Assembly: GCA_013298545.1 (NCBI GenBank)
Contig: JAAFIA010000009.1
Span: forward strand, 39,995 to 90,152
Origin: Bacteroidota bacterium
GTDB lineage: Bacteria > Bacteroidota > Bacteroidia > Palsa-965
Length of the DNA stretch: 50,158 bases
Direction of reading: 5' to 3'
In this document: piece by piece, positions 5,281-36,850 of the stretch
Layout of the letters: each line of letters starts with the position of its first letter
Position numbering within the stretch: position 1 is the stretch's first letter
Position numbers and translations under genes: made by a program
Notes under the pieces: generated by a model
What the model was told of the DNA's origin: nothing
Database searches by the model: none
What the model saw: the letters and a program-made list of their open reading frames with translations, nothing else

Positions 5281-6363
5281 ATGAAAAAAACACTTGCTCT
5301 CGGTTTTCTGCTCGGCTGTTTTAGCCTCGATGCTCAAATTACCATCAACCAGAACGATATGCCTGATGTGGGCGATACCATTCGGGTATCTTATGCTGGC
5401 AGTACCAATGTCGATCATACGCTTACAGGAGCAAATTACCTTTGGGACTTTTCAACGCTGGTTCCCAATGCACAAGAACGGATTGAGTTTATTGCGCCAA
5501 CAGCTTTGCCTTTCAATTTTTTAGCAGATCTTGGAACTTTAAACCCATCTCCCGATTCGATTCCATTTATCGGCGATGTTCCAACCAATTTTATCGATTA
5601 TTTCAAAAATGGCTCTTCGGGCTACCGGCAAATTGGATCTAGTTTTGATTATGCACCAATTGGTTCGTTTTCGATTCCCGTGATATTTAGCAGTTCGGAT
5701 TATATTTATCGTTTTCCATTGCAGTATGGCAACTTAGATAGTTCCAACTCGGCTTATGGTATTCCTTTGCCGAGCATCGGATACATTGGACAAAATCGTA
5801 AACGTGTAAACGAAGTTGATGGTTGGGGTACGCTGATTACGCCTTATGGTACATTTCAAGTTTTACGGATTAAATCCATTGTAAACGCAACAGACACAAT
5901 TTCGTTGGATAGCACAACTGGTTTTACGATCCCGCGTCCACAAGAAATTCAGTACAAATGGCTTGCAAACGGTATGGATATTCCCATACTGGAGATTGAT
6001 GTACAACTACTCTTCAATAATGAAGTTATTTCTGCAATTACATATCAAGATAGCATTCGCGATAGTGTCTTTCAAGTAGGTTTAGCAGAACCAATAAAAA
6101 ATATTTCTTCTTTGGCTATATATCCAAATCCGGTTGCCAATCAGGCTACATTATCCTATAACCTAATTAATCCATCTCAGGTAACGATGCGTATCTTTGA
6201 CATAACAGGCAAATCGATCCAAACAACTGATTTAGGGCAACAATCTATCGGCAAACAGCAATTTTCTATCGACGTAACTTCTCTTTCAGCAGGAGTTTAT
6301 TTTATTCAAATCGACACCGGAACGGCTATTTATGCGCAGCGGTTAGTCGTTGTTCCTAATTAG
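5281..6363 (+). CDS. T9SS type A sorting domain-containing secreted protein
   Basis: Secreted protein of 360 residues carried across the outer membrane by the type IX system. The signal peptide is about residues 1-19 (MKKTLALGFLLGCFSLDAQ). The middle region (about 20-275) is beta-rich and not recognised; family members with this layout are often of unknown function. The last about 80 residues form the T9SS type A C-terminal domain: the SLAIYPNPV motif, then FDITGKSIQ, LSAGVYFIQI and the final RLVVVPN, as expected for por secretion system sorting signals. The ATG at 5281 fits the signal peptide and the nearby promoter box. It stands alone; the next gene starts 269 bp later. Confidence 0.92.
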   Translation: MKKTLALGFLLGCFSLDAQITINQNDMPDVGDTIRVSYAGSTNVDHTLTGANYLWDFSTLVPNAQERIEFIAPTALPFNFLADLGTLNPSPDSIPFIGDVPTNFIDYFKNGSSGYRQIGSSFDYAPIGSFSIPVIFSSSDYIYRFPLQYGNLDSSNSAYGIPLPSIGYIGQNRKRVNEVDGWGTLITPYGTFQVLRIKSIVNATDTISLDSTTGFTIPRPQEIQYKWLANGMDIPILEIDVQLLFNNEVISAITYQDSIRDSVFQVGLAEPIKNISSLAIYPNPVANQATLSYNLINPSQVTMRIFDITGKSIQTTDLGQQSIGKQQFSIDVTSLSAGVYFIQIDTGTAIYAQRLVVVPN

Positions 6364-6632: not shown

Positions 6633-9600
6633 ATGAAGCGCATTCTTACGCTACTCGCCTTTTTGTTTTTGTCGGCTGGTATCTCTGCACAAGATTTATC
6701 GGTCATTGCTATTCCTGCTCCTGTTAGCGGTTGCGCTTTGACATCAACTCAGGCTGTTACGATCCGAATTTTCAACTATGGAACTAACCTTCCAGCTGGA
6801 ACTTCTTTCAACGTATCGTACACCATCAATTCGGGAACTCCGGTGGTGGAACTGCTCACCTTGGGTAGCACGATGCTTACAAACTCAACCATCAACTATA
6901 CATTTACCACAACAGCAAACTTATCTGTTCCGGGTATTTACGAGTTTGATGCAACGGTTAGTATCGCTGGCGACATTAACCCAACAAACAATGCGTTCAA
7001 CGATTATTTCGTAACCAGCACAGCTCCATCTGTTGGTGGAACGATTTCTGGACCTACAAGTGTTTGTATTTCTGGAAATAGTGGCTTATTGACACTAACT
7101 GGTAATACAGGAAGTATTTTGCGTTGGGAAGTTTCAACCGATGGTGGTTCAAGTTGGGTAACGTTATCAAACACCACAGCAAACCAACCGTACAACAATA
7201 TTGCTGTTCCGACACAATACCGTGCAGTTGTTCAAAATGGTGGCTGTACACCTGTCAATTCATCAACGATTTCGATTGCCATTGATCCGGCTTCTGTTGG
7301 CGGAACAGTTTCTGGAAGTGCTAGTGTTTGTGCTACCGGAAACGGTGGAACAATGACCTTGAGTGGGCGCGTTGGCTCGATTGTGCGTTGGGAATTTTCG
7401 ATTGATGGTGGTGCTACTTGGACCAACATTGCCAATACCACAGCATCACAAACCTATTCAAACCTGACACAATCTACCCTCTATCGTGTTCGTGTTCAAA
7501 GTGGTACTTGCAATGCGGTTTACTCTTCTGCAGCTAATATCGCTGTAAGCCAACCTGCTGTTGGTGGCGATCTATCACCAATTGCAGTAACCGAGTGTAG
7601 TGGTTTAAATTCGGGCATATTGACACTTGCAAGCAATACAGGTGCAATTAACCGTTGGGAGTTTTCGGTAAACAATGGCATTACTTGGACCAATGTTACC
7701 AATACAACCAATACGCTTGCATACAGCAACCTCACGCAAACACGTTGGTATCGTGTGCGGGTGTTGAATGGAGCTTGCCCTCAAGCTTATTCCGATACAG
7801 CAATCATTACTGTAAATGGAACATCAGTAGGTGGAACAGTTACACCATCAACTACTACCGTCTGTGGTGGTGTCAATAGTGGTACACTTACGTTGAGCGG
7901 ACAAACTGGTGCTGTCAATATGTGGCAGTTCTCGATAGATGGTGGTTTAACATGGAATAACATAGCCAATACAACGAACACGCAAACATTTACAAACCTA
8001 ACCACAACTACGTTGTATCGTGCAATGGTTCAAAATGCGCCTTGCGTAGTTGCCTTCTCATCCACGGCAACGGTAACCGTAAATCCGGCATCTGACGGCG
8101 GTACAGTTTCTGGTGGAATAACAGTTTGTAGCGGAAGCAATAGTGGTATGCTTAACTTAACTGGACAAACAGGAACAGTAACCTTATGGCAATCATCCAA
8201 TGATGGCATTACTTGGACCAATATTGCCAATACCAGTGCCACACAAAATTACAGCGCATTAACAGATACGACCTATTACCGCGCTATTGTTACAAATGGT
8301 GTTTGTCCTTCAGACACATCAACAGTAGATTCTGTGGTTGTAGATCCTATATCTGTTGGTGGAACATTGGCGCCTGCTACGTTATTGTTGTGTAGTGGAA
8401 ATAATTCAGGTACAATTACGCTCTCGGGCCATACAGGAAACGTTGTACGTTGGGAATACTCTACTGACAATGGTTCTTCATGGATTTCAATTTCAAATAC
8501 CGCTACCACGCAATCGTATAGCAATATTCCAACCTCTACCATTTATCGGGCTTTGGTTCAAAGTGGTGTTTGTGCTCAGGTGTATTCCTCTTCTACACTC
8601 ATTACCGTTGATCAACCGTCAGTGGGTGGAACACTTTATGGTTCTTCTACGGTTTGTAGTGGCAGCAACAGCGGTGTTTTGACATTGGTGGGTGCAGTTG
8701 GTGTAATATCGAACTGGGAATCGTCTAACGATGGTGGTGTAACTTGGAATACGATTGCCAATACAACAACCAGTAACAATTATTTGAATTTGACCGATAC
8801 AACACTCTACCGTGTTTTGGTCATGAATGGTGTTTGCCCCAGCGATACTTCTACACTCGTAACGATTTTGGTTGATGAACCTTCTGTTGGCGGAATCGTA
8901 ACGCTTGATGATACGGTTTGTAGTGGAGCAAATTCAGGAACACTCACACTTAGCGGTCATACAGGCCTTGTCAATAGTTGGGAATTTTCTACCGATGGTG
9001 GCATTACATGGTTATCCATTTCTAACAACACTACTTCGCAGGGATATTTCAACCTGACACAAACAACACGTTACCGTGCTACGGTGAAAAATGGAGTTTG
9101 TAACCCAATTCCATCTAGTGTTGCAACCATTACAGTTGATGTTCCTGCAACTGGCGGAAGCATTGCAGGAAGTACATCGGTTTGCAGTACTGCAAATAAC
9201 GGAGCTTTAAATCTTGTTGGTTCTTCTGGTACAATTGTTTCGTGGGAAACCTCAACAGATGGCGGTTTGACATGGACTCCAAACGGAAATACTACAACAA
9301 CAGAAAATTATACGAATCTGACAGATACCACATGGTATCGTGCTATTGTAACAAGCGGAACTTGCGGAAATGACACTTCTTTGGTGGGCATGATTACGGT
9401 TGATCCGGCAACGGTTGGTGGTGTGCTTGCCAATAACGATACGGTTTGCAGTGGATTGAATGGCGATACCATTCGCTTGAGTGGTCATATTGGTACGGTG
9501 CTTCGTTGGGAGTATTCGTTTGACGGTGGCAACAATTGGATTGCTGTTTCAAACAATTCCGATTCGCTCATCTATTCCAATTTAACCATCACCACACTTT

Positions 9601-10910
9601 ACCGCGCTGTTGTTCAGAGTGGAACTTGTGTTAGTTTGTATTCGTCTATTGATACGATTACTGTAACACCCGCTACTGATGCTGGAGTGATTATGGGTGC
9701 AACTTCAACCTGCGAAGGAACAGGAAATGGTACACTCACACTCAATAATCAAGTTGGTAATGTGATTGACTGGGAAACATCAACCGATGGCGGTTTGACT
9801 TGGGTAAGCCTTGGCAATACAGGAACATCGCAAACGTGGAGCAATTTATCAGATACAACGTGGTATCGTGCCATTGTTGGAAGTGGTTCTTGTGTAAGCG
9901 ATACAACGGCTCCGGTTACCATTATTGTTCATCCAAAACCTGTGGCAGCTTTTTCAGTAGCTGATGTGTGCCAAGGAATTGCTTCTGCTTTTGTCAATAC
10001 AACAACCGTTGGCTCAGGAAACATTCAATTCCAAACTTGGGATTTTGGCGATAACGATGCTTCTGTAACGGGCAATCCAACACACAACTATGCCTCAGCT
10101 GGATTGTATAACGTCAGTCTAATTGTTGTATCGAATCAGTCTTGTGCTGATACGGCAACAGGAACAGCGTTGGTCAATGCATTACCAAACACCAATATTT
10201 CAGTTGCTGGTAGCACCACGCTTTGCCTTGGTGATAGTGTTGCATTAAGTGTTGTATCCAATATCAATTACAGCTACCTCTGGAGTACAGGCGATACACT
10301 CAATACAACACAAGCCAATTCATCAGCTTTTTACACCATTACCATCACTGATACATCAACCGGATGTATGGCAATGGATTCTGTTGAAATTGTTGTTGCC
10401 CCTGGCATACCCGTCAACGCTGGGCCAGACACAACCATCAGTGCCGGAACATCTATTATGCTTCAAGGAACTGGAAGTGGAAATTTGGTTTGGTCGCCAT
10501 CTATTGGTCTGAGCGATCCATTTATTGCCAATCCGATTGCAACACCGCCCTACTCCATTGTTTATGTTTTATCCTCAAATAATCCGGGAGGTTGTGCATC
10601 AACAGATTCAGTTACGGTTACACTCCGCAACGATTTTAACGTGATTGTATCGAATATGATTACGGCCAATGGCGACGGGCACAACGATACATGGGTCATT
10701 CAGCACATTGAGTTTTATCCAGATAATAAAGTAACCGTTTACAACCGCAACGGTATGGTTGTATTTGAAGCTGATGATTATCTCAATGGTTGGACAGGAA
10801 CATACAATGGACAACAATTGCCGGATGGAACATATTATTATGTGATTCAAATCACCGGATCGGAAGAGGTGATTCAGGGAGCAGTAACCATCATCAGCGA
10901 AAACAAATGA
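6633..10910 (+). CDS. Giant T9SS type B adhesin with 11 tandem Ig-like repeats
   Basis: Cell-surface protein of 1425 residues. Signal peptide about 1-20 (ending GISAQ), then a CARDB-like domain (about 21-130). Next come 11 tandem repeats of about 88 residues (133 to about 1102). Each starts near S/TVGGT, has a Cys about 10 residues later (VCSG), a core W-E/Q-x-S-x-D-G-G-x-x-W, a Y-x-N-L-T then T-x-Y-R-A/V motif, and a second Cys, probably disulphide-bonded to the first. A PKD domain follows (TWDFGD, HNYASAGLYNVSL), then two further Ig-like domains. The gliding-motility-associated type B C-terminal domain ends the protein (MITANGDGHNDTW, VTVYNRNGMVVFE, LPDGTYYYVIQI). SprB-type adhesins share this end. 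The PorP/SprF gene follows 23 bp later, as is usual for type B cargo. Confidence 0.93.
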   Translation: MKRILTLLAFLFLSAGISAQDLSVIAIPAPVSGCALTSTQAVTIRIFNYGTNLPAGTSFNVSYTINSGTPVVELLTLGSTMLTNSTINYTFTTTANLSVPGIYEFDATVSIAGDINPTNNAFNDYFVTSTAPSVGGTISGPTSVCISGNSGLLTLTGNTGSILRWEVSTDGGSSWVTLSNTTANQPYNNIAVPTQYRAVVQNGGCTPVNSSTISIAIDPASVGGTVSGSASVCATGNGGTMTLSGRVGSIVRWEFSIDGGATWTNIANTTASQTYSNLTQSTLYRVRVQSGTCNAVYSSAANIAVSQPAVGGDLSPIAVTECSGLNSGILTLASNTGAINRWEFSVNNGITWTNVTNTTNTLAYSNLTQTRWYRVRVLNGACPQAYSDTAIITVNGTSVGGTVTPSTTTVCGGVNSGTLTLSGQTGAVNMWQFSIDGGLTWNNIANTTNTQTFTNLTTTTLYRAMVQNAPCVVAFSSTATVTVNPASDGGTVSGGITVCSGSNSGMLNLTGQTGTVTLWQSSNDGITWTNIANTSATQNYSALTDTTYYRAIVTNGVCPSDTSTVDSVVVDPISVGGTLAPATLLLCSGNNSGTITLSGHTGNVVRWEYSTDNGSSWISISNTATTQSYSNIPTSTIYRALVQSGVCAQVYSSSTLITVDQPSVGGTLYGSSTVCSGSNSGVLTLVGAVGVISNWESSNDGGVTWNTIANTTTSNNYLNLTDTTLYRVLVMNGVCPSDTSTLVTILVDEPSVGGIVTLDDTVCSGANSGTLTLSGHTGLVNSWEFSTDGGITWLSISNNTTSQGYFNLTQTTRYRATVKNGVCNPIPSSVATITVDVPATGGSIAGSTSVCSTANNGALNLVGSSGTIVSWETSTDGGLTWTPNGNTTTTENYTNLTDTTWYRAIVTSGTCGNDTSLVGMITVDPATVGGVLANNDTVCSGLNGDTIRLSGHIGTVLRWEYSFDGGNNWIAVSNNSDSLIYSNLTITTLYRAVVQSGTCVSLYSSIDTITVTPATDAGVIMGATSTCEGTGNGTLTLNNQVGNVIDWETSTDGGLTWVSLGNTGTSQTWSNLSDTTWYRAIVGSGSCVSDTTAPVTIIVHPKPVAAFSVADVCQGIASAFVNTTTVGSGNIQFQTWDFGDNDASVTGNPTHNYASAGLYNVSLIVVSNQSCADTATGTALVNALPNTNISVAGSTTLCLGDSVALSVVSNINYSYLWSTGDTLNTTQANSSAFYTITITDTSTGCMAMDSVEIVVAPGIPVNAGPDTTISAGTSIMLQGTGSGNLVWSPSIGLSDPFIANPIATPPYSIVYVLSSNNPGGCASTDSVTVTLRNDFNVIVSNMITANGDGHNDTWVIQHIEFYPDNKVTVYNRNGMVVFEADDYLNGWTGTYNGQQLPDGTYYYVIQITGSEEVIQGAVTIISENK
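7029..9940 (+). repeat. 11 coding repeats of about 264 bp
   Basis: Tandem repeat block inside the adhesin gene. The first two repeats begin at 7029 and 7293, exactly 264 bp apart; later ones keep a period of about 88 codons with one- to two-codon changes. The DNA copies are clearly diverged while the protein pattern is kept, so the array is old and under selection rather than a recent amplification. Confidence 0.9.
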
Positions 10911-10933
10911 TAACCTCTTCAAGCAACACAGCC

Positions 10934-11875
10934 ATGAAAAAAATTTTTCTCTCCACCGTTTTTGCTGCATTGGTTCTTTCAACCTCAGCACAACAGTTGC
11001 CTTTGTATAGCCAGTACGCTTTCAATCCATTTTTGTACAATCCTGCCATGACGGGCATTTCAGGCGAAACCAATGCGTTTTTGATTCATCGTTCGCAATG
11101 GGCGGGAATTTCTGGCGGGCCAGTTACCAATGCGTTTACCATTGATGGATTTCTGGAAGAACGCAATACGGGTTTAGGTCTGAATATCTTCAACGATGTG
11201 CAAGACATTAACGAACGTTTGGGCATTTATGCTTCGTATGCCTATCGGCTGAAAATCAATGACGACATGCATGCGCGTTTTGGTCTTTCGCTCGGTTTTC
11301 TCGACAATCGACTTGATTTTTCGCGCGCGGTTGTAAGCGACAACAATGACCCGATGTTGTTTGGTCAGATTCAACGCAAAAGTGCCTTAGATGCGACAGT
11401 GGGTGGCATGTTTGCTTGGAAGGATTTGCGCGTTGGTATTTCGGTCCCTCAACTTCTCGGACAACAAGTAAAATACCAAACATACGATACGCGTTCGTTT
11501 TACGAATTGAACCGTCATTACATGGGTAGCGTGGGTTATCGTTGGATGTTTAACGAAACCAATCAACTCACCTTAGAACCGACAGCATTGGTGCGTTGGG
11601 TTCAAGGTGCACCTGTTCAGTACGATGTAAACGCACAAGTCAACTGGAAAGATTTTGCATGGCTTGGGGTTTCGTACCGCAGCAATTACGCGGTTGGTGC
11701 TAATGCGCGCATTCGGTTATGGAATAGCTTGAGCGCAGGTTATGCATACGATTTTATCATCACACCATTGCGTACTTCGGCGGGCATCAGTCATGAATTT
11801 ATGCTCGGCTATACATTTGGTAAAGTGCAGGCTGCAAGCACGTCTGGTGGTCATGTTCGTGGTAAATACGATTAA
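10934..11875 (+). CDS. PorP/SprF family type IX secretion outer-membrane protein
   Basis: Outer-membrane protein of 313 residues in the PorP/SprF family, which serves secretion and anchoring of T9SS type B cargo. It has a signal peptide (about 1-18, MKKIFLSTVFAALVLSTSAQ) followed by the family hallmark QLPLYSQYAFNPFLYNPAMTG and then HRSQWAGI..GGP. The rest is a beta-barrel with alternating strands, ending in SHEFMLGYTFGK. The ATG at 10934 is the start: the reading frame is open further upstream but that part overlaps the adhesin 3' end and lacks a signal peptide. It sits between the adhesin and the PorE-like gene in one operon and is probably dedicated to that adhesin. Confidence 0.93.
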   Translation: MKKIFLSTVFAALVLSTSAQQLPLYSQYAFNPFLYNPAMTGISGETNAFLIHRSQWAGISGGPVTNAFTIDGFLEERNTGLGLNIFNDVQDINERLGIYASYAYRLKINDDMHARFGLSLGFLDNRLDFSRAVVSDNNDPMLFGQIQRKSALDATVGGMFAWKDLRVGISVPQLLGQQVKYQTYDTRSFYELNRHYMGSVGYRWMFNETNQLTLEPTALVRWVQGAPVQYDVNAQVNWKDFAWLGVSYRSNYAVGANARIRLWNSLSAGYAYDFIITPLRTSAGISHEFMLGYTFGKVQAASTSGGHVRGKYD

Positions 11876-11892
11876 TCTTCTGATTGCTGGAT

Positions 11893-13878
11893 ATGAAACG
11901 TTTTCGTTGGATTTTAATGTTGGTGCTTGGAGGATTATTCTTCCTGCAACAAGATGTTTTTGCTCAGACGGGGTCTGAAAAAACAATGATTTCGCACGCG
12001 GATCAGTTATTTCAGCAACGCGAGTATGAACAGGCGTTTTCATATTACATGAAGTTGAAAGAACTGCATCCCGATATTTTAATGTACCAGTTTCGTGCGG
12101 GAGTGTGTTGTATTTATCAGGGCGATGGCGAACAAGCATTGACACTTCTCAAACCGTGTTATGATAAAGAACCCAATACGGTTGACATCAATTTCTTCCT
12201 TGGACGTGCTTATTTGTTGAACGATATGTTTGACGACGCGTTGTTGCAGTTCAATTTGCAATTGGCGAAAGAGACCAATGAAGCAGAAAAAGTGCGTTTG
12301 CAGCAATATGTAACAAACTGCATGAGTGGAAAAGAATTGATTGGTAAACAAGCCAACACGTTGATCGAAAATCCGGGTCGTCCACTCAATACGCCAGGCG
12401 CCGAGTTTGCACCCATTCTAACCCGCAATGATTCCGTTGTTATTTATACATACAAAGGGCCGTTGAGTACAGGTGGTAAAGATTATACGTTTGGAAAGAA
12501 AGATTCGGCAGGTGTTTATTACGAAGATGTTTTTCTGAGTATGAAAGGTCGGAACGGTTGGTTTTTCCCACAAGGATTAAGTCCATCGCTTAACTCAAAT
12601 GCGCATGATGCATGTACTGCCATTTCAAACGACGGTAAGAAACTATACACGTATCGGAGTTCAAACAAAGATGGTGGCGATATTTATGTTTCCCAAGCGC
12701 GTGGCAAAGACTGGACAATTCCAGTTAAACTCAATGGTATCAATTCTCCAGCATGGGAAGGAAGTGTAGCGTTTACACCCGACGGAAAAACGATGTATTT
12801 TGCCAGTGATCGTGCAGGTGGTTTTGGAGGAAAAGATATTTATAAAGCGACCCAAATCAATGATTCAGTTTGGGGAAATGTAGAAAATCTTGGTGCTGCC
12901 ATCAATACAGCACAGGACGAAGATGCTCCAAGTATTTACCCCGACGGAACACGGTTAATTTTTGCTTCGCGCGGACACAACAGCATTGGTGGTTACGATA
13001 TTTTTGTGAGCGAATTAGCAGATGATTTAAAAAACTGGAAAGCACCAAACAATGTGGGTGTTCCGATCAATAGTACAGCAGACGATATTTACTACACAGT
13101 TGCCAGTGATGCAACACGGGCTGCTTTTGCCTCCAATCGTAAAGGCGGTTCGGGGCAAATGGATATTTACTTTGCCGAGCCTGGGCTGCCAGCTAAAGCC
13201 AATGAATTAATTTTATTGAAAGGACAAGTAACGCTCGACGCAAAACCTATTGCGGCCATCGTTACGGTTACCTATACAAACAAAGAAATTGTTCAAGGTG
13301 ATTATAAAAGTAATGCTGAAAATGGTCGCTATGCCATTACGCTTCCACCAGGAGAAGATTACCGTCTCGTCTTCATGATTAGTGGTCAAGAAGAGTATAT
13401 GCGCACGTATGATGCAACACAAATAAAGAGTTTTACTTCAAATGAAATTAACGTCGAATTTTTTACGGACACATTTAAAATGAAGCATCCTGAAAAATTT
13501 GGTGTCATGAGTAAATCCGATTCTACTCGCATTGCCAACGAACAGAAAAAAGACAATCAAATGGTTGGTAAGGATGGCAAAAAAATTAGAATGGTGCGCG
13601 ATTCTATCGGAAATTTTAAAGTAATGGATGAAGGCTACAAACCCGAACCTGGTTATTATGTTGTTATTGGTTCTTTCAAAAATAAAGATTACGCCAAACG
13701 TTTAGAAGCCAAAGAACTTGGTCTTGCCCGTTATCCCAAAATACAACGTGTGTTTAATAGCAAAAATGGGTTCATGTATGTTACTGTTGCCCATCCCGCT
13801 ACACGCGAAGAAGCAGAAAAAATGATACAAGAAATTCGCCCCGAATATGCGGACGTTTGGATTCAATTATTGGAGTGA
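11893..13878 (+). CDS. PorE-like TPR / PD40 propeller protein with C-terminal SPOR-like domain
   Basis: Periplasmic or envelope protein of 661 residues. Order: signal peptide (1-25, ending VFAQ); TPR-type helices (about 30-140; ADQLFQQREYEQAFSYYMKL); a PD40/WD40-like propeller (about 165-425) with blades such as FTPDGKTMYFASDRAGGFGGKDIY and SIYPDGTRLIFASRGHNSIGGYDIF; a carboxypeptidase-regulatory-like domain (about 435-520); and a SPOR-like domain (about 587-661; YYVVIGSFKNKDYAK...MYVTVA). PorE of the T9SS has TPR, propeller and regulatory-like domains in this order but ends in an OmpA-like peptidoglycan-binding domain. SPOR domains also bind peptidoglycan, so the role (anchoring the secretion or adhesin complex to the wall) may be kept. 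The ATG at 11893 is used rather than an in-frame TTG at 11884; it follows the SprF stop by 17 bp. Confidence 0.88.
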   Translation: MKRFRWILMLVLGGLFFLQQDVFAQTGSEKTMISHADQLFQQREYEQAFSYYMKLKELHPDILMYQFRAGVCCIYQGDGEQALTLLKPCYDKEPNTVDINFFLGRAYLLNDMFDDALLQFNLQLAKETNEAEKVRLQQYVTNCMSGKELIGKQANTLIENPGRPLNTPGAEFAPILTRNDSVVIYTYKGPLSTGGKDYTFGKKDSAGVYYEDVFLSMKGRNGWFFPQGLSPSLNSNAHDACTAISNDGKKLYTYRSSNKDGGDIYVSQARGKDWTIPVKLNGINSPAWEGSVAFTPDGKTMYFASDRAGGFGGKDIYKATQINDSVWGNVENLGAAINTAQDEDAPSIYPDGTRLIFASRGHNSIGGYDIFVSELADDLKNWKAPNNVGVPINSTADDIYYTVASDATRAAFASNRKGGSGQMDIYFAEPGLPAKANELILLKGQVTLDAKPIAAIVTVTYTNKEIVQGDYKSNAENGRYAITLPPGEDYRLVFMISGQEEYMRTYDATQIKSFTSNEINVEFFTDTFKMKHPEKFGVMSKSDSTRIANEQKKDNQMVGKDGKKIRMVRDSIGNFKVMDEGYKPEPGYYVVIGSFKNKDYAKRLEAKELGLARYPKIQRVFNSKNGFMYVTVAHPATREEAEKMIQEIRPEYADVWIQLLE

Positions 13879-34824: not shown

Positions 34825-35775
34825 TTAAAATAAATGGTAGCGTTGGCGTTGAAAATCTTGAAATCCTTTGTACCCACCTTTGGTGCCGCCAATATTTAAG
34901 CGGTAAGCAAGCATCAACTCGTGTGTTCCTGAATGGCCTTTTCGCAAACGGGAAATGCCAATATCGTAGGAATAAATGGCCTGAAAATTATCGAGGAAAA
35001 CTAATCCGGCCTGAAGTGCAACCGCATCACGCATACGCCAAGCCACGCCTGCCGTGATTTTTTCTTTGTAATGTACACGCAAGTTATAATTGATGGTCAT
35101 GGGCAAACCAACGACATAAGAAAACAGGATGTTGTTTTCCCAAACATAATCGGGATGGCCATGAAAATTGTATCCTGTAGAAAAATAATAGTGATTGACC
35201 CAAGGGATGTTTGCTTGTGTTGTATCTTGAACAAAAAGTTCAGCGCGGTTATTGACAACCTGCATCACTCCCAATCCAAAATGGAAACGGTCGTTGTACA
35301 ACAAAATACCAGCGGAAACATTGTTGTTTTTATCAAAATTGCTTGAGGCTAGCGGAACAGCGGCATCGGCATAGTGTGTTGTAGCGTTTGCTGTATTGAA
35401 CGTTGTTTTAGCGCGGTTGTAGCCAATTCCAGCAGAAAATTCAACATCCGGGAAACGCAAGTGATAAGCTGCGGTAAAACCATAATTGAAGCGTTGAATC
35501 GGGCCAGTAGCATCTTTGTACATGACACCACCAACACCAATGCGTCCTTTCCAGAGACGGCTGTGCACCGCAATGGTCTGTGTTGTGGGCGCACCGTCAA
35601 AGCCCACCCATTGACGGCGGTAATTGATGCGTGCATCGAGATGTCCTTTTGTTCCTGTATAAGCTGGATTAACGACAAATAAATGGGCCGGATACTGCGT
35701 GAAATCGGGAAGTTGTTGTGCCTGAAGAGCGAATGAAAACAAGCTTGCAACAAGGCAAAAGAGAATACGGTTCAT
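34825..35775 (-). CDS. PorP/SprF family outer-membrane protein
   Basis: 316 residues from the ATG at 35775. The upstream extension of the open frame to 35991 overlaps the preceding gene and does not code a signal peptide. Signal peptide about 1-19 (MNRILFCLVASLFSFALQAQ). Family signature: QLPDFTQYPAHLFVVNPAYTG then RRQWVGFDGAPTTQ and VHSRLWKGRIGVGG; later VDFSAGIGYNRAKT-like barrel strands (FPDVEFSAGIGYNRAK) and the C-terminal SGTHELMLAYRLNIGG. It follows the type B secreted protein after 13 bp, so it is probably its partner. A second pair of this kind in the window, unlinked to the first. Confidence 0.92.
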   Translation of the reverse strand: MNRILFCLVASLFSFALQAQQLPDFTQYPAHLFVVNPAYTGTKGHLDARINYRRQWVGFDGAPTTQTIAVHSRLWKGRIGVGGVMYKDATGPIQRFNYGFTAAYHLRFPDVEFSAGIGYNRAKTTFNTANATTHYADAAVPLASSNFDKNNNVSAGILLYNDRFHFGLGVMQVVNNRAELFVQDTTQANIPWVNHYYFSTGYNFHGHPDYVWENNILFSYVVGLPMTINYNLRVHYKEKITAGVAWRMRDAVALQAGLVFLDNFQAIYSYDIGISRLRKGHSGTHELMLAYRLNIGGTKGGYKGFQDFQRQRYHLF

Positions 35776-35788
35776 GGTCATAAGGGCA

Positions 35789-36850
35789 TCAACGAATAAT
35801 GGTAACTGAACTACGAATGATTTCCGAACCATCGCCCAGATCAAGTGTGAAATAATAGACTCCAGCAGGGAGTTTATCGCCGTAGTTGGTACCGTCCCAC
35901 GAATTATCATAGCCAGTTTTGGCAAACACCAACTGTCCGGTACGGTCATATACTTCCAAACGGTTATTGGGATACTTAGCAATATTGCCAATAAACCAAA
36001 TATCGTTTACATAATCTCCATTGGGAGAAAATGTGTTGTAGAGGACAACTTCAGAACTGGGAATAACGATGATGCGAACGGTATCTTCATCGGTACAACC
36101 ATTGGCATCAACACCATAAACAGTATAAACCGTTGTTACAGGAGGTTCTGCATTGGTTGAAGCTAAATATGGATTGGATGTAAACTGACTGGGTTGCCAA
36201 ACATACTGCGATGCTCCAGTAGCCGAAATAATGGTTGTTTCGCCTTCGTTAATGGTTGCATCGCCAGAAGCAACAACAACAGGTTTTGGATTCACCGTAA
36301 CGGTTACTTGATAGTTTTTGGTAGGGCAATTGGGACTAGTAATAACAACACTATAAACCGTTGTCGCCGTAGGTGTAGCAATTGGCCTCGGATCATTCGG
36401 ATTGTTGAGTGTGGAAACAGGAGTCCAAGAATAATTTACACCACCCGTAAAATCGTTTGCCGCTGCGCCGAGGGTTGCCGATTGTCCCAAGCAAATACTT
36501 TGATTCGCGCCAGCATTGTATGCATATACGGGATAAAGATCAACATGAACCGTATCATAAGCGACAGCGCCTGTATCGTCGGTAACTTGGAGCACATACC
36601 AATGTGGCGTAGCTGGTTGCGCGATAGGATTGGCAACTGAATTAGAACTCAGATTAATGGGGTTAGCAATCCAGGCATACGTGTAGGGGGGTTGCCCACC
36701 TGTTGCAGCAGGAGTACCTCCTAGCACAGCCGTTTGGCCCGGGCAAATTAGAGCATCTACTCCGGCATTGGCAACCAATGATTGCGCCGTGAGCAATTGC
36801 GAGGCCGAGCAAGAAAAAAGAAGAGTGAATAAAAACAGGATTCGAGTCAC
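35789..36850 (-). CDS. T9SS type B sorting domain-containing secreted protein
   Basis: 353 residues, starting at GTG 36850 (no in-frame ATG lies before the signal peptide). Signal peptide about 1-22 (ending LLTAQ). Three beta-sandwich, PKD/Ig-like domains follow (about 25-105, 110-190 and 195-265), each with G-x-x-x-x-x-C or NAGANQSICLGQSATLG-type starts. The type B gliding-motility-associated C-terminal domain ends the protein (NTFSPNGDYVNDIW, LEVYDRTGQLVF, YDNSWDGTNYGDKLPAGVYYFTL). The SprF-type gene downstream is its likely secretion partner. Smaller than the SprB-like adhesin at 6633. Confidence 0.92.
   Translation of the reverse strand: MTRILFLFTLLFSCSASQLLTAQSLVANAGVDALICPGQTAVLGGTPAATGGQPPYTYAWIANPINLSSNSVANPIAQPATPHWYVLQVTDDTGAVAYDTVHVDLYPVYAYNAGANQSICLGQSATLGAAANDFTGGVNYSWTPVSTLNNPNDPRPIATPTATTVYSVVITSPNCPTKNYQVTVTVNPKPVVVASGDATINEGETTIISATGASQYVWQPSQFTSNPYLASTNAEPPVTTVYTVYGVDANGCTDEDTVRIIVIPSSEVVLYNTFSPNGDYVNDIWFIGNIAKYPNNRLEVYDRTGQLVFAKTGYDNSWDGTNYGDKLPAGVYYFTLDLGDGSEIIRSSVTIIR

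Follow-up and report, generated by a model that had tools for sequence, protein, structure and literature searches.

A SPOR-ended PorE-like protein beside a type B adhesin and its SprF shuttle: a putative wall-tethered display operon in Bacteroidota

How the type B adhesins exported by the type IX secretion system (T9SS) are held at the cell surface, and why some of them glide and others stay, is an open question in Bacteroidota. It is raised anew by a head-to-tail cluster of three genes at positions 6633-13878 of a 50,158-nucleotide stretch of a Bacteroidota genome (contig JAAFIA010000009.1; this whole stretch is the window in what follows). The genes, separated by gaps of 23 and 17 bp, encode an adhesin, a PorP/SprF shuttle barrel and a PorE-like protein whose C-terminal domain is SPOR instead of OmpA-like. 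We consider it probable, at roughly 0.68, that the locus makes a static surface adhesin tethered to the cell wall. The features on which the argument turns are these:

6633-10910, + strand: adhesin with a type B C-terminal domain (CTD), 1425 aa (PF19081, PF18911, PF13585, TIGR04131)
10644-10892, + strand: the type B CTD, residues 1338-1420, its subtype being that of the adhesins encoded ahead of SprF::SPOR fusions (CTD hidden Markov model, HMM)
10934-11875, + strand: PorP/SprF shuttle, 313 aa (PF11751, 237.7 bits; TIGR03519, 250 bits)
11893-13878, + strand: PorE-like partner, 661 aa, with a signal peptide that lacks a lipoprotein cysteine
11956-12282, + strand: TPR domain of the partner, residues about 22-130 (PF14559 and others; helical in the full-length model)
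12370-13197, + strand: beta-propeller of PD40 repeats, residues about 160-435 (PF07676, 107 bits)
13219-13404, + strand: CRD-like (regulatory-like) domain, residues 443-504 (PF13620, 14.6 bits, below the cut-off; beta-rich in the model)
13648-13875, + strand: SPOR domain of the SprF-linked, Gln-less subtype, residues 586-661 (PF05036, fold, subtype HMM)

A conserved operon and its SPOR tail

The assignment of the tail is supported by sequence and by predicted structure alike. Pfam recognizes PF05036 at residues 586-653 (32.7 bits, cut-off 21, E 1e-7), and the SPOR region extends to residue 661, the end of the protein. An AlphaFold model built for the C-terminal 92 residues (pLDDT 89, pTM 0.80) has its strands and helices in the order typical of SPOR, and SPOR structures account for five of the best six rows in VIA-align (two RlpA entries, Z 8.6 and 8.4; CwlC, 7.7; DedD, 6.8; DamX, 5.5) as well as for the top four matches in Foldseek. 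At the C-terminus neither Pfam nor the structure comparison finds an OmpA-like domain, its place being occupied by SPOR. Upstream of the tail, the TPR, propeller and CRD domains follow each other in the order known from PorE, with the CRD match being weak, and TolB propellers head the Foldseek list for the propeller of the full-length model. An earlier note, composed from the letters of the DNA alone, had proposed just such a TPR-propeller-regulatory-like series with a SPOR end, and structure prediction of that end bears it out.

The two preceding genes are readily classified. The adhesin starts with a signal peptide (MKRILTLLAFLFLSAGISAQ) and ends in a CTD detected by PF13585 (86.1 bits, cut-off 27) and TIGR04131 (65.1 bits, cut-off 35), the two marks of a type B CTD substrate of the T9SS; about 11 Ig_7-type repeats, spaced at about 264 nt, make up its body and are followed by a PKD domain and the CTD. 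The next gene, directly 3' of the adhesin and scoring above the cut-off, is a PorP/SprF shuttle by both position and sequence. SprA and PorK/GldK of the T9SS are present in the genome.

The search for other operons with the same layout, which the earlier note had envisaged, yielded six orthologous loci. The gene order and the SPOR tail recur in genomes G001 and G003-G007 at 49-61% identity, five of them from the same genus and one from a second genus of the same family, so that the operon is present in seven genomes with the window. Because layout and tail recur together at these loci, the arrangement is not a matter of chance. One relative is the uncultured Flavobacteriales metagenome-assembled genome Kiruna3_bin-3741. 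A third genus, sampled with four genomes of which three are incomplete, yielded no window-type operon.

SprF::SPOR fusions and the ancestry of the operon

We searched 395 genomes of the class with a profile built from window-type SPOR tails and read 60 regions. The regions were chosen by the SPOR match alone (the later ones also by a long reading frame), not by the presence of SprF or a CTD, so that an association of the three is not built into the sample. The first matches turned out to be not orphan SPOR-tailed PorE-like proteins but PorP/SprF proteins with the same SPOR at the C-terminus. There are 40 such SprF::SPOR fusions from 21 family-level groups, and in 38 of the 40 a type B CTD gene ends no more than about 220 bp before the start of the fusion, mostly with gaps below 60 bp. 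In most of the scanned sample, Pfam detects PF11751 and PF05036 in single reading frames, the SPOR being joined to SprF by a coiled-coil spacer or, in some proteins, by a TPR spacer. NCBIfam labels the fusion proteins PorP/SprF only, and we found no relevant paper in the open-access literature that links SPOR domains to PorP or SprF; a SPOR-tethered type B adhesin system appears to be widespread and, in that literature, undescribed.

All three conserved elements of the window operon belong with these fusions: its CTD, SprF and SPOR are each of the subtype found in SprF::SPOR operons, with the SPOR placed on the next gene and not in the SprF polypeptide. The seven window-type tails score a median of 78 bits with an HMM of the fused SPORs vs 9 bits with an HMM of orphan tails, and hhalign gives E 7e-30 against the former vs E 3e-4 against the latter. 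In a quick tree, the fused SprFs enclose that of the window (26 rows, 99 by SH-aLRT); in a more careful SprF tree, the window seven group with the fused protein of locus L278 at 96/84, and the fused set is monophyletic in 0 of 200 bootstrap trees. An HMM of fused-operon CTDs ranks the seven window-type CTDs first, at 139-152 bits, with all others tested at 118 bits or less. Judged from these profiles and trees, the CTD, SprF and SPOR of the window co-derive from one operon type, and because its SprF and CTD, too, group with the fusion set, the window operon would be a split version of it. The simplest account seems to be that an adhesin-SprF::SPOR operon split and the SPOR moved onto a PorE-like protein. 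The proposal of the earlier note that the operon forms an apparatus dedicated to one adhesin gains from this common operon type and from the known complex of PorP, PorE and a type B protein (PMC9143113).

The presumed recipient of the SPOR comes from a large family; at E 1e-20, some genomes give at least 20 PorE-like matches. When 78 TPR-propeller-CRD cores were placed in a tree, those with SPOR tails and those with OmpA tails mostly fell into different parts of it. The 7-row window clade (support 100) belongs to a branch of 49 rows, most of them SPOR-tailed (support 100), and is adjoined by 16 orphan SPOR-tailed proteins (support 95); the SprF-linked OmpA-tailed cores, three of them from the genome of the window, are far off on long branches. 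Derivation of the window tail from the SPOR2 tails of these core relatives ('VQIGAYR...ITRFT') was rejected, given that the respective HMMs score only 9 bits. SprF linkage was seen in none of the 39 rows of orphan SPOR2-tailed PorE-like proteins in the tree set, nor for any of the 43 orphan SPOR tails in a second sample of 80 loci from named genomes; the sampled neighbors of the orphan SPOR-tailed proteins include a HI0933-like flavoprotein and an M16 peptidase. The orphan Gln-type SPOR family is large, lacks SprF and is represented by one or more paralogues per genome; TPR-propeller proteins with one to three Gln-type SPORs are found, among others, at L092:1518-4379 (- strand), L093:7607-9625, L076 and L080. 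Separately, PorE-like proteins of about 520 aa without a wall domain lie between the type B CTD and SprF genes at L207, L211, L222, L237, L246 and other loci (around position 7000).

According to the earlier note, SPOR had taken the place of OmpA. The SPOR end is there, but a simple swap does not hold, in view of the apparent origin of the tail in SprF::SPOR shuttles, the SPOR-tailed kin of the core, and the coexistence of SPOR and OmpA in one polypeptide at three loci. Because related SPORs coexist with OmpA in this manner, SPOR is not merely an OmpA replacement, and the simple swap was dropped. The three loci in question are L340:2387-5176 and L341:7291-9849, with PorE-like proteins that have an N-terminal SPOR and a C-terminal OmpA, and L353:2312-6064 (- strand), with a 1250-aa protein that unites PorP/SprF with OmpA and a SPOR tail, directly behind the gene for a 1683-aa type B adhesin. 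L340 represents a second split form, with an adhesin, SprF and then SPOR-TPR-propeller-CRD-OmpA. Two adjoining proteins at L328 (448-1623 and 2416-3729, - strand) also have an N-terminal SPOR and a C-terminal OmpA.

Tethering to the wall and its alternatives

The locus could work as follows. The SprA translocon would export the 1425-aa adhesin, the type B CTD of which would be caught by the cognate SprF barrel; the barrel would then remain as its anchor in the outer membrane. Docking on SprF would fall to the periplasmic partner (11893-13878), probably via its TPR/propeller part, and the SPOR tail would fasten the complex to the cell wall. The same SPOR would perform this role while fused to SprF in most relatives, and in the window lineage it would do so from a separate PorE-like protein. 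Where two domains form one protein in some genomes and are encoded by separate neighboring genes in others, they usually work together, and we infer the contact between SprF and the partner because the SPOR is fused to SprF elsewhere and resides on the neighboring gene here.

The conclusion that the display is static and tied to the wall draws on three observations. PorE binds PorP, and PorP binds the type B protein, in the PorE-PorP-PG1035 complex of Porphyromonas gingivalis (PMC9143113); the type B adhesin Fjoh_3952, with a PorE-like gene in its operon, is static (PMC12618676); and the Cys-X-Cys motif of the SprF C-tail, which is bonded to GldK and is needed for movement on the gliding track (PMC12635249), is absent from the window-type SprFs, all seven of which (7/7, window included) end in RGKYD and lack any tail cysteine. 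The last point bears directly on the possibility that the adhesin glides, carried by the GldJKN track. The SprB-like layout of CTD and SprF and the presence of SprA and PorK/GldK would suit a gliding adhesin, but the tail cysteines missing here are present in two other SprFs of the same genome (L163 and L164), and the PorE-like partner matches the operon of a static adhesin, making gliding very improbable. It is hardly credible, either, that the third gene encodes an ordinary PorE that serves the T9SS in general and has no tie to the adhesin. Beyond the domain order, such an identity could appeal to the match with the NCBIfam PorE model NF052230; however, the 161.6 bits obtained are far under the cut-off of 600, and the gene is co-inherited with one adhesin and one SprF. 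The matches to the PorE and CHU_0125 models are confined to residues 27-523 and leave only the OmpA part of the models uncovered; the best-scoring NCBIfam model for the core is CHU_0125 (NF053607; 211 bits, residues 27-518, cut-off 620), to which other SprF-linked PorE-like proteins of the same genome, which have OmpA, score far higher, at 302-485 bits. Because of the low score, the lack of OmpA and the lack of a lipoprotein cysteine (there is no Cys in the first 40 residues and hence no lipobox), the third gene is not a PorE. A carboxylate-clamp, CHIP-like role of the TPR in binding the SprF terminus was also considered and dropped, the clamp residues not being conserved in a comparison by eye.

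What the SPOR tail recognizes is a separate matter. Known SPORs bind peptidoglycan; RlpA holds the glycan via Q270, the R302/R309/R311 patch and F274, and DamX W416 is needed for septal localization (PMC6895207). Mapped from the structural alignment ranges, RlpA Q270 corresponds to V591, F274 to F595, and DamX W416 to W656; the FtsN alignment puts V591 at Q251 and Y629 at R285. The hallmark Gln (RlpA Q270, FtsN Q251, DamX Q351) is thus Val591 in the window and Val or Ile in 7/7 orthologues, and the combination of this Gln with the basic patch (mapped at the FtsN R285/RlpA R309 position only) is missing. Gln and the basic residues are not found in every accepted SPOR, so the claim of glycan binding is lowered and the fold assignment is not. 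The earlier note suggested that the apparatus might be directed to division sites. On that reading, the tail would bind denuded septal glycan and gather the adhesin there and, hence, at new poles. The closeness of the fold to RlpA, CwlC, DedD and DamX, together with the retained Phe595 and Trp656, is in keeping with this idea, but given the replacement of the glycan contacts by Val591 and Tyr629, the direction to septa is unsupported and, in our opinion, unlikely. In a 19-row SPOR alignment the Trp is the only invariant position, and V or I occupies the Gln position in nearly all SprF::SPOR fusions read. Neither is the loss of Gln peculiar to the window operon, an idea weakened by the finding that W-type SPORs of Bacteroidota commonly lack it (8 of the 13 others read); because other SPORs of the phylum also lack Gln, its loss is no proof of lost wall binding. 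The same substitutions raise the prospect that the Gln-less SPOR serves to dock on a protein, for instance the SprF barrel or a periplasmic partner shared by these systems, with wall binding coming from elsewhere or absent. The strict co-occurrence of this SPOR with SprF and the three proteins that combine it with OmpA agree with docking, but we view it as rather unlikely, considering the peptidoglycan binding of known SPORs, the preserved aromatic face, the spacer of 100-300 aa that places the SPOR of the fusions as if to reach the wall, and the lack of any other wall domain in the window protein. Tentatively, and with more doubt than confidence, the Gln-less SPOR anchor, whether fused to SprF or acting via a PorE-like partner, might recognize a wall feature or a partner other than denuded septal glycan. 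If so, adhesins would be displayed at fixed cell sites, and SPOR would have a role outside division and sporulation.

Several observations weigh against the static, wall-tethered adhesin or the history proposed for it. Two polar glycan contacts are lost (V591 and Y629), with the aromatic F595 and W656 kept, and because SPOR and OmpA occur together in L340, L341 and L353, the SPOR may do something other than bind the wall. In approximately unbiased (AU) tests, a clade of fused SprFs without the window is borderline (p 0.052), and joining the window core with the SprF-linked OmpA cores gives p 0.248; because the latter value leaves that grouping possible, the history of the core is likely but not proven. 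Furthermore, the sequences include uncultured metagenome-assembled genomes. We still favor the tethered adhesin. That the SprF barrel is fused to SPOR in no fewer than 21 family-level groups is direct evidence, at the genome level, of a periplasmic tie, most likely to the wall, and gives independent support to the proposed PorE-type tethering. It would extend SPOR from cell division to the display of surface adhesins, and the fused SprF::SPOR proteins offer single-gene targets for tests of anchoring and localization.

Neighboring genes and known systems

One further gene accompanies the operon:

5281-6363, + strand: small secreted protein, 360 aa, bearing a T9SS CTD of type A (PF18962/TIGR04183)

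It is kept at six of the seven window-type loci (window included). Homologues of its body were found only beside window-type operons (five further loci), with none at the SprF::SPOR loci read, and the protein is likely an accessory of the window locus, going by this distribution. Elsewhere in the window (34825-36850, - strand), another protein with a type B CTD (353 aa) is accompanied by a PorP/SprF gene of its own but by no PorE-like partner.

Compared with characterized systems, the locus is a variant of the PorP/SprF-PorE kind and not a new kind of machine. It resembles the PorE-PorP-PG1035 complex of P. gingivalis in combining a type B CTD protein, a PorP/SprF barrel and a periplasmic TPR-propeller-CRD protein with an end domain of a wall-binding family; however, PorE is lipid-anchored, binds stem peptides through an OmpA-like end and is needed for T9SS secretion in general, whereas the window partner has no lipid anchor and ends in SPOR (PMC9143113, PMC7192894). 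The Fjoh_3952-3951-3950 operon of Flavobacterium johnsoniae likewise encodes an adhesin, which forms static foci, a cognate SprF-like shuttle and a PorE-like protein (PMC12618676), but the PorE homologues of F. johnsoniae keep the peptidoglycan-binding residues of OmpA (PMC7192894), where the window partner has SPOR. CHU_0125 of Cytophaga hutchinsonii shares the core and differs in its OmpA/Pal-like end (NF053607; PMC5891637). With the gliding pair SprB-SprF, the locus has in common a type B adhesin held by an SprF barrel, but the C-tail Cys-X-Cys bonded to GldK (PMC12635249) is missing from the window SprF, which has a PorE-like partner instead. Finally, the tail shares the fold and the equivalents of Phe595 and Trp656 with the SPORs of RlpA, DamX and FtsN (PMC6895207), and differs from them in lacking the Gln and the equivalent of FtsN R285/RlpA R309 and in belonging to an adhesin shuttle system rather than to a divisome protein.

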